Position numbers and translations under genes: made by a program
Source of the DNA: Gammaproteobacteria bacterium
GTDB lineage: Bacteria; Pseudomonadota; Gammaproteobacteria; SZUA-229
DNA: 64,000 nt
Direction: 5' to 3'
Assembly: GCA_029881795.1 (NCBI GenBank)
Contig: JAOULX010000004.1
Span: forward strand, 62,001 to 126,000
Part shown: piece by piece, positions 25,834 through 37,027 of the stretch
How the letters are laid out: the number at the start of each line of letters is the position of its first letter
How positions within the stretch are numbered: the stretch's first letter is position 1
The notes under the pieces: model-generated
The model's database searches: none
Told to the model about the DNA's origin: nothing
Seen by the model: the letters and a program-made list of their open reading frames with translations, nothing else

Positions 25834-26436
25834 TTAATGTTTTGTCGCCAGCGCTAAGAATACCGGGTAAGATTTATCGGGTTTATTGACGGTTAGTGCG
25901 GTTACAAAACTGACGTCTTTAAAACCGTTATTTTCCAGAATTTCCTGAAAGGCTTTTCGATCAAAGCCGGAATGAAAAACCCCTTCAGCTTCCGGCGGGT
26001 GAAAACTGCCATCTTCTGAATCCAGATCTGCCAGCGCGACTTTAGCACCGGGTTTCAGGTGTTCTGAAAAACGCTGAATCATTTTCACTGTATCATCAAC
26101 ATGGTGCATGGCCATCGCACTCATGATCACATCGAATTGTTTATCCAGCGGCTGCTCAAGAATATTGTGACAACGTGTTTCAACTTTCCCTGCTAATTCT
26201 TGTTTTGCCGACAGCTGATCCAACATTGCCTGCGATGTATCCACTGCGGTGATGCTATTGACCAGCGGCGCGACATGCGCACTGATCAGACCGGTTCCAG
26301 CGCCAAAATCCATGACCTGCATCGATTCATTGAAATCAATATTCGTTACAATCGCCGAACCAATCGAACTTGAAAGATTACGAACCATTTCATTGACATC
26401 CCAGTCCTGAGCTTTTTCTTCAAATAAATCAGACAT
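25834..26436 (-). CDS. Class I SAM-dependent methyltransferase
   Basis: VMDFGAGTGLISAHVAP motif I; start likely at MSDLFEEK. Confidence 0.9.
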   Translation of the reverse strand: MSDLFEEKAQDWDVNEMVRNLSSSIGSAIVTNIDFNESMQVMDFGAGTGLISAHVAPLVNSITAVDTSQAMLDQLSAKQELAGKVETRCHNILEQPLDKQFDVIMSAMAMHHVDDTVKMIQRFSEHLKPGAKVALADLDSEDGSFHPPEAEGVFHSGFDRKAFQEILENNGFKDVSFVTALTVNKPDKSYPVFLALATKH

Positions 26437-30476: not shown

Positions 30477-30887
30477 CTATCCCGATAATATTCGTGGCCA
30501 GCGATGATAGATTGCATCGCTTTGTTCCGGCTCAATCGTCACCACGTAAAGTCGCTGTTCATAGCCTTCTTTTGCCACCAATCCCTGCACCCACTGACCT
30601 TTGGTCAGCGTATGCCAGTGACTGTTACCCTCTATATCTTTTTCCATGAATTGTAATAAAGGCAATTTGACCGGTATCGGGAACCAGCGATCCCAGCGCC
30701 CGGCATAAATTGAATCCAGTCTGGCCCATCCCCCCATTGGCAACTTTCCCTGTTGAGATCGACGACGCCCCCATGGCAATATCAGATCAGCTCCGTGTTT
30801 TGGTTTTACCGGTATACAGGCTGTCATTTCAGGAAAAAACACACGCTTTTCATACTCGCCATTGTAATAAATAACACCACCACACAT
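30477..30887 (-). CDS. Short SRAP-like (YedK/HMCES-related) protein
   Basis: MCGG N-terminus, GGWARLDS, FMEKD and AIYHRWPRIL match the order of SRAP residues C2, N/A-R, E and H; third gene of the lexA operon. Confidence 0.6.
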   Translation of the reverse strand: MCGGVIYYNGEYEKRVFFPEMTACIPVKPKHGADLILPWGRRRSQQGKLPMGGWARLDSIYAGRWDRWFPIPVKLPLLQFMEKDIEGNSHWHTLTKGQWVQGLVAKEGYEQRLYVVTIEPEQSDAIYHRWPRILSG

Positions 30888-30896
30888 CTCGTTCTC

Positions 30897-32171
30897 TTAT
30901 TTTTTAACTTTGTTTTTAACAAGGGCTTCATCCTGAATAGTTTGTCTGTGACCGAAAGGTTTCCACGCCGGCGCAATCACATTCGGCATGCTGGAACGGT
31001 TCAACAAACGCGCTGGTGCCAGAGTAAACTCACCGTAACGGTTATTAACCTTATCCATCGCGTTATTGGCTGCATCCTGTTTCTCTGTATCGGATGCAAA
31101 CATATCCCTCTGCTGCTGTAACGGACGCGGGTCAAGGGCTGTGATCTGCACCTGATGTATGCCCTCACCTTGCCAGTAGACATCCAGCACAGCGCGGCAA
31201 ATATTCATTAGTAAATGACCATCATTAGTCGCCAGTTCTGTTTTCATTTTGCGGCCAAGCCAGCCTTCACTGCTGCGCAATCCGATATAAAAATTCTGCG
31301 CCACCATCTGATGGCGGCGTAACCTTGCCACCACCTTTTCACTCATGTGCAATAAATAAGTTAATAATACGCTGCGCTCTTTGGTATCCGGCGGCATGAC
31401 TTTCCCGTGCCCCACCGTTTTCGGTGCAGCTACGTCCTGATGCAAGGGATCCGGATCTTCTCCCTGACACATATACCAGATACGTCGCCCCGGATTGCCA
31501 AAACGTCTGGCCAGTTCACCAATCGGTAATTTTTTCATATCACCGCACAGATAGACACCACGATCAGCTAAAAAGCCGCCGATACCGTGACTGATACCAC
31601 ATAACTCTGTTACCTTAACAGACTGCAATCGCTGTCGTGATTGCCACGGCGGTATCACCGTCAGACCATCCGGTTTATTCAGTTTGGCCGCATATTTTGC
31701 TGTGGTTTTATCGCCACTGATACCGACCGAGCACAATAAACCCGAGGCAGAAAATACTTTGTTTTTGGTTAAGCGGGCAATCTGTTCCGGCGTGCCTAAT
31801 AACTTTTGACAAGCACTGACATCCAGAAAGGCTTCATCAACTGAGAATATTTCTATCTCCGGTGTGATATCTTGCAGTGCTTTCATTATCCGTGTTGAAA
31901 CCTCGGCATATCGCACCGGATTAGCCGGGCACTGAATCAAACCCGGACAAATTTTTCGCGCCTGATTTAAACGCATGCCGGTTTTTACACCATAGGCACG
32001 TGCCTCGTATGAACTGGTAATAATGCAGGTGCCGGTTATTCCATTGGTGATGGCGACCGGGCGGCCCCGCCATTCCGGATGATCGAGTTGTTCGACTGAG
32101 GCAAAAAAGGCATTCATATCAACCAGAAGTATTGCTTTTGGCCATGGCTGATCAACAATGTGCTGCGTCAT
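30897..32171 (-). CDS. Y-family DNA polymerase (UmuC/DinB-like)
   Basis: AILLVDMNAFFASVEQ and IFSVDEAFLDVS catalytic motifs; QRDMF clamp-binding-like motif near C-terminus. Confidence 0.92.
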   Translation of the reverse strand: MTQHIVDQPWPKAILLVDMNAFFASVEQLDHPEWRGRPVAITNGITGTCIITSSYEARAYGVKTGMRLNQARKICPGLIQCPANPVRYAEVSTRIMKALQDITPEIEIFSVDEAFLDVSACQKLLGTPEQIARLTKNKVFSASGLLCSVGISGDKTTAKYAAKLNKPDGLTVIPPWQSRQRLQSVKVTELCGISHGIGGFLADRGVYLCGDMKKLPIGELARRFGNPGRRIWYMCQGEDPDPLHQDVAAPKTVGHGKVMPPDTKERSVLLTYLLHMSEKVVARLRRHQMVAQNFYIGLRSSEGWLGRKMKTELATNDGHLLMNICRAVLDVYWQGEGIHQVQITALDPRPLQQQRDMFASDTEKQDAANNAMDKVNNRYGEFTLAPARLLNRSSMPNVIAPAWKPFGHRQTIQDEALVKNKVKK

Positions 32172-32767
32172 TACATATAAAAACGTAACTGCCCTGCCAG
32201 TACTCCCTGTATCCGCACCCGTTCTGCTTTAAAGCGCATTGGCTGCATGTTTTGATTTTCTGGAATCAATTCCAGAGAATCATTGCCCAGATAATGCAGG
32301 CGTTTTAAGGTCGCTTCCGACTCATCGATCAGTGCCACCACCACATCCCCTTCTTTAGCACTGTCGCAGGGTTTGATAATCACCGTATCACCATCCAGGA
32401 TACCAATATCCATCATTGAATCCCCCTTCACGACCAGCGCATAACGATCCGTTCCCATAATAGGTGACAGATCCAATTTATCCTGCCCGGCAATGGCTTC
32501 AATCGGCTGACCTGCTGCTATGCTGCCAATCAGCGGGATGCTGCTAATGGTTTCCTGCAACTCATCGGATAACTGAATACCGCGTTTTCGACCCGATAGT
32601 AAATCGATATAACCGGCTTCTGATAAGGCCTGCACCTGACGATGTACCGAACCTTTTGAGCTCATACCCAGGCCTTTCGCAATCTCCGTCAAGGTCGGTG
32701 AAAAGCCTTCTCTGGCGATATATTGACGTATAAAATCCAGTATTTTATGCTGCCCAGATGTTAACAT
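32171..32767 (-). CDS. lexA: LexA-family repressor (ATG at 32767)
   Basis: HTH PTLTEIAKGLGMSSKGSVHRQVQAL; AAGQP cleavage site, GDSMMDIGI Ser, EATLKRL Lys. Confidence 0.9.
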   Translation of the reverse strand: MLTSGQHKILDFIRQYIAREGFSPTLTEIAKGLGMSSKGSVHRQVQALSEAGYIDLLSGRKRGIQLSDELQETISSIPLIGSIAAGQPIEAIAGQDKLDLSPIMGTDRYALVVKGDSMMDIGILDGDTVIIKPCDSAKEGDVVVALIDESEATLKRLHYLGNDSLELIPENQNMQPMRFKAERVRIQGVLAGQLRFYM

Positions 32768-32771
32768 AATC

Positions 32772-32818
32772 GTTCTCACAATGTTCTCGATGAAAAAAGT
32801 ATAGAACATTTTGAGAAC
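32772..32818. promoter_or_regulatory. Two inverted GTTC-N7-GTTC boxes upstream of lexA (putative LexA operators)
   Basis: 32772-32786 GTTCTCACAATGTTC (+) and 32804-32818 GTTCTCAAAATGTTC (-); 14/15 identical. Confidence 0.8.

Positions 32819-33976: not shown

Positions 33977-37027
<3,051 letters not shown>

Follow-up and report, generated by a model that had tools for sequence, protein, structure and literature searches.

What does a protein of 136 residues do when it is encoded directly behind a LexA repressor and a Y-family DNA polymerase? This question is raised by a gammaproteobacterial locus in the window analysed here (the whole stretch of 64,000 nucleotides taken from contig JAOULX010000004.1), where three minus-strand genes were confirmed at the expected positions: lexA (32171..32767; 198 aa), the polymerase (30897..32171; 424 aa) and the 136-aa open reading frame (30477..30887), hereafter the mini-SRAP. 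The tight packing described by an earlier, sequence-only reading of this DNA holds down to single bases. That is, lexA runs from 32767 to 32171, where its TAA stop and the polymerase ATG overlap by one base (taATG); the polymerase extends from 32171 to a TAA stop at 30897, and, 9 nt further on, ATG TGT opens the third frame (30887 to 30477). Because the polymerase TAA stands in frame three codons upstream, this Met-Cys is the sole possible start of the mini-SRAP.

The two larger proteins could be assigned directly. LexA scored 167.8 bits with TIGR00498 (cut-off 110.95), has the PF01726 and PF00717 domains, and is the only full-length LexA that the genome search found. The polymerase belongs to the Y family, with an IMS domain (PF00817, 7.8e-44), intact catalytic acidic residues and the DMN and SVDEAF motifs, both also kept in its relatives. 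It further carries QRDMF (31098..31112, minus strand), a candidate sliding-clamp-binding motif that recurs in the form Q-x-[DE]-[LM]-F in most relatives and may bind the clamp. The genome search found no UmuC and two IMS proteins only, the operon polymerase and DinB. The genome further encodes an orphan S24 peptidase that resembles UmuD (153 aa; L139:2354-2815, on G000 contig C1; Peptidase_S24 2.5e-29), with similar proteins in most relatives, and a hybrid histidine kinase with an MHYT domain and two receiver domains (33977-37027) lies near the operon but outside it.

The 136-aa protein had been proposed to be kin to SRAP (E. coli YedK, human HMCES; PF02586, formerly DUF159). Pfam, NCBIfam and PHROGs gave no match for the window protein, a PDB sequence search returned no SRAP and no sequence relative, and a BFVD fold search gave one short, uninformative match. 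A PDB sequence match to BLIP-II, due to repeated WG...P...aG.W blades that contribute about 11 bits each, was discarded, as the predicted model is not a propeller and BLIP-II is absent from the Foldseek list. AlphaFold2, run with family alignments, yielded models with a pLDDT of 94.2 for the window protein and 93.6 for a distant member of its family. Foldseek against the PDB matched the window model to YedK (probability 1.00, TMq 0.55, E 0.023), all other listed matches having a probability of 0.11 or less, and matched the distant-member model to the SRAP structures 6kbu, 2icu and 2bdv (E 7e-4 to 5e-3), with the next match at a probability of 0.08; compared with YedK and BB2244, the latter predicted model gave a probability of 1.00 and TMq of 0.55-0.65. 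Similarity to YedK in predicted structure, on which the proposal had been staked, was thus found.

Profile comparisons point the same way. Alignment of the family with 30 canonical SRAPs (hhalign) gave E values of 4e-6 (local) and 1.5e-7 (global), extends from end to end and pairs C2 with C2, WAR with NAR and E82 with E105. A canonical SRAP HMM scored family members up to 22.7 bits, vs. a maximum of 5.7 bits among 903 controls (shuffled or reversed), and the window protein itself at about 1 bit, while SRAP was the commonest sub-threshold Pfam match among members (7/33, best 19.4 bits). The curated PF02586 cut-off is 27.1 bits and the domain spans 220-260 residues; with no match for the window protein, a best member score of 19.4 bits and a length of 136 aa, the protein falls below both and is hence better described as a homologous compact variant than as a canonical SRAP member. 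Based on the Foldseek matches, the profile alignment, the HMM scores and the sub-threshold Pfam matches, the mini-SRAP is, as judged from sequence and predicted structure, a compact, divergent, half-size SRAP homologue. About 80 SRAP residues are absent from it, namely the helical part at the N-terminus and all that follows the His motif. The proposed kinship is accordingly borne out by predicted structure, by profile comparison and by an invariant Cys2.

Conservation of the active site was counted over 43 family members. Cys2 (codon 30882..30884, minus strand, as are all codons below), the candidate N-terminal nucleophile, is preceded by the only possible start and is present in 43/43 members although residue 3 varies, so that its conservation among orthologs, which the proposal required, is complete. 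The SRAP Asn-Ala-Arg corresponds to Trp54-Ala55-Arg56 (30720..30728; W 42/43, A 42/43, R 39/43), the YedK Glu105 to Glu82 (30642..30644; E 40/43), and the YedK His160 column to Tyr127 (30507..30509; H 32, Y 8, F 2 and C 1 of 43), whereas Arg129 and Pro131 are kept in all 43. In other words, the predicted fold, a Cys2 able to become the N-terminus and the catalytic Glu are retained, but Tyr replaces the catalytic His in the window protein and both congeners (His in 32/43), and the Asn is Trp in 42/43. The motifs pointed out earlier (the MCGG start, GGWARLDS, MEKD and IYHRWPRIL) are all present, with three corrections to how they were read: the protein ends IYHRWPRILSG, not IYHRWPRIL; the residue at the SRAP Asn position is Trp54, not Gly; and His128, taken for the catalytic His, is off by one from the YedK His160 column at residue 127. 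One congener reads IYQRWPRIL and thus has His at neither 127 nor 128. Among other members, two proteins (L066:467-871 and L067:1501-1905) keep Cys2 and have lost the catalytic Glu and Arg, and another (L193:3852-4274) keeps Cys2, has lost the Glu and has Asn in the His column.

How much these substitutions matter can be gauged from YedK, in which Glu105 matters most, its loss not being tolerated, while loss of His160 lowers the rate about tenfold and Asn75 has little effect on internal AP sites (PMC9436759). Given these mutant rates, AP-site chemistry by the mini-SRAP is made less likely, though still arguable, by the absence of His and Asn. In addition, His160 mutations impair YedK less severely at 3'-PUA ends than at internal AP sites, while N75A is impaired on 3'-PUA (PMC9436759); these results motivate a reading in which the mini-SRAP acts on opened aldehydes, but they cut both ways.

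The mini-SRAP is a member of a conserved gammaproteobacterial family without a name. Of 65 genes collected, 63 distinct ones were counted, two doubtful, distant proteins of one genus (L068:2068-2418 and L069:2748-3098; ~30% identical) being left out since they have no Met-Cys start; possibly, these represent a further outgroup. Dozens of genomes keep the open reading frame (approximately 40-91% identity), which is therefore more than a chance frame. The gene was found at 16 loci in genome contigs, in 8/58 relatives, in 41/369 genomes of the same class and, in a wider sample, in 7/398 genomes, every one of that class; it also occurs on plasmids and in three viral contigs, and no match turned up in a phage collection. 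Copies that are frameshifted, truncated or broken by a stop (L016:3951-4356, L075:4129-4416 and one on G262 contig C2) indicate that the gene can be lost.

Linkage to mutagenic polymerases recurs across this family. Forty-six of the 63 mini genes lie behind a Y-family polymerase gene of the same orientation, in 41 cases no more than 200 nt away, and lexA is present in 16 of the 26 PolY-linked loci with enough flank. In the gene tree, the PolY-linked genes group together, with three unlinked exceptions inside the group (L048, L064 and L074), and a second clade is separate. Outside the PolY-linked group, umuDC adjoins the mini gene in five loci (L092, L192, L194, L195 and L196) and DnaE2 in one (L191; NCBIfam PRK05672, 1490 bits). 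In the family as a whole, the examined flanks of about ten members contain no mutagenic polymerase. Ten related loci have the lexA-PolY pair but no mini gene, which is thus a detachable third component. The earlier description of the operon as a self-contained module agrees with its regulation in this genome (below), but less well with these ten loci. One genome (G680) encodes two mini-SRAP copies, one divergent from DnaE2 (L191) and the other from UmuDC (L192), with a CTGT-N8-ACAG box between each pair. At another locus (L141:3745-4832), a mini-SRAP and a canonical SRAP are adjacent in the same orientation downstream of a Y-family polymerase.

The upstream region of lexA carries two oppositely oriented copies of GTTCTCAMAATGTTCT, a GTTC-N7-GTTC pattern known as the Caulobacter-type SOS box (table in PMC9578287). 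The lexA-proximal predicted operator, GTTCTCACAATGTTCT (32772..32787, plus strand), is one of two perfect copies in the genome, and the distal one, GTTCTCAAAATGTTCT (32803..32818, minus strand), is conserved in position in related genomes; in the pattern search of the genome, these two were the only perfect copies, both at this lexA, whose predicted own-gene operators are conserved in relatives. The pattern was present in 17 of 26 module promoters, some of the 26 being close relatives, vs. 7 of 1816 control windows. Some loci without a lexA of their own carry the gammaproteobacterial box CTGT-N8-ACAG instead (L047, L077 and L141), and this box also stands beside L191, L192, L195 and L196. That is, the module carries predicted LexA-type boxes in different hosts, the type of box varying among hosts. 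The conserved LexA-type operators, together with the links to three mutagenic polymerases, strengthen the earlier view of an SOS-like operon.

The reach of this LexA seems narrow. Besides the two perfect copies, no genome match had fewer than 2 mismatches, and the 43 near-matches vs. 32 in the reversed control amount to background, which led us to reject a wide regulon of perfect or nearly perfect sites. A 2-mismatch site at window position 26159 falls inside a methyltransferase-like reading frame (as identified by reading the sequence) and was treated as chance, and the region upstream of recA has neither a GTTC-N7-GTTC nor a CTGT-N8-ACAG box. Weaker or different operators might extend its regulation beyond its own operon.

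Building on the computed fold, the conservation of Cys2 and Glu, the operon and its operators, and the recurrent linkage to mutagenic polymerases, we consider it probable that this is an autoregulated SOS mutasome operon in which an SRAP-core protein captures damaged DNA alongside the polymerase. Under this hypothesis, LexA would repress the operon through the two GTTC-N7-GTTC boxes, as the boxes and the known mechanism of LexA suggest, and damage would activate RecA and cause LexA self-cleavage, so that the Y-family polymerase and the compact SRAP-core protein would be co-produced. Following removal of Met, the N-terminal Cys2, aided by Glu82, would most likely capture abasic sites or related aldehyde ends on single-stranded template, with the WGRR strand and the conserved Arg56 and Arg129 close to the DNA, and the captured lesions would be shielded while the clamp-bound polymerase, cooperating with the mini-SRAP, bypasses or fills in nearby damage. 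As to covalent capture of abasic sites by Cys2 taken on its own, sequence and model tip the balance slightly in its favor. Counting against the hypothesis as a whole are the change of His to Tyr in this genus and of Asn to Trp, the about 80 absent SRAP residues, the absence of Glu and Arg from L066 and L067, and the members without a flanking mutagenic polymerase. A bolder version, which we find rather unlikely as a whole, is that mini-SRAPs are dedicated SOS-mutasome subunits reduced to a minimal SRAP core and swapped among PolY, Pol V and DnaE2 complexes, with the ring-opening His relaxed and the Asn lost because they would act on opened aldehydes (e.g., AP-lyase 3' ends) or on AP sites that the polymerase presents to them.

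The main rival is that the SRAP fold was kept for a non-covalent role: the protein would assist mutagenic polymerases as an accessory subunit, acting as a manager or DNA clip where other mutasomes have UmuD, YolD or ImuB-C. The tight co-operonic linkage, the loss of the SRAP Asn, of the His in this genus and of the Glu in some members, and the fact that such polymerases as a rule come with small partners (PMC6511836) all fit this alternative. On balance, we consider it unlikely, though to be taken seriously, since Cys2 is invariant at the true N-terminus, a feature that a scaffold could do without, and the same protein accompanies unrelated polymerase families, including UmuDC, which already has UmuD. 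A role as an autopeptidase switch, which was the first function suggested for SRAP, could draw on the conserved Cys2 and Glu, two of the three residues that PMC3765255 names; yet the proposed triad lacks its His in this genus, the family as a whole varies at that position, and with the start codon directly before Cys2 and no upstream start at all in 31/45 members there is no pro-sequence to cleave, making this reading highly improbable.

A further alternative is that the mini-SRAP simply replaces the canonical SRAP in genomes that have lost it, and PF02586 SRAP is indeed absent from this genome and from the sampled relatives with the mini gene. Among genomes of the class, however, canonical SRAP is present in 14/41 mini-positive genomes vs. 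122/369 overall, and its presence is thus independent of the mini gene. Such co-occurrence, which at L141 extends to neighbouring genes, led us to reject replacement, to which we give hardly any credence. We favor the hypothesis of an SOS-controlled operon with a DNA-capturing SRAP core.

The theme of SRAP with DinB and LexA is already known, the main text of Aravind et al. 2013 (PMC3765255) giving SRAP-DinB(-LexA), SRAP-UmuDC and SRAP-ImuA/ImuB/DnaE2 operons, i.e., the same three polymerase contexts as for the mini-SRAP and with LexA sometimes included; the SRAPs there are full-length, and a compact subfamily is not described in that main text. Compared with the SRAP family, the mini-SRAP is alike in predicted fold, Cys2, catalytic Glu, the Arg of Asn-Ala-Arg, the Arg and Pro of His-x-Arg-x-Pro and the mutagenic-polymerase neighbourhood, and differs in size (136 aa vs. 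about 220-260 aa, without the N-terminal helical part or the region after the His motif), in Trp for Asn, in the relaxed His (Tyr here) and in scoring below the Pfam cut-off. In the account given in PMC6511836, the Geobacter lexA-imuB-C-polY operon similarly unites LexA, an active Y-family polymerase and one small partner, but its third gene is ImuB-C instead of SRAP and the gene order is different; its LexA reportedly does not bind the recA promoter (PMC6511836, citing Jara et al. 2003). YolD, co-operonic with the LexA-controlled Y-family polymerases YqjW/UvrX, is likewise small but predicted to be WYL/SH3-like, not SRAP (PMC6511836).

In the main text of the open-licence papers searched, we came across no half-size subfamily that combines Trp for Asn, a relaxed His and sub-Pfam scores with a spread over three mutasome types. 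The novelty lies in a compact SRAP subfamily whose active site is altered and which is common to three mutasome types; it has the look of a pared-down partner in mutagenic DNA repair that has escaped notice. The mini-SRAP may be the smallest functional SRAP, its family shows which active-site residues are dispensable (Asn and His) vs. mostly indispensable (Cys2 and Glu), and the compact operon could be used for testing whether abasic-site shielding couples to translesion synthesis. A lexA-polymerase-mini operon is also carried by a 320-kb plasmid of Methylophaga thalassica (L088, 4162-6441), where the third gene is annotated as a hypothetical protein.
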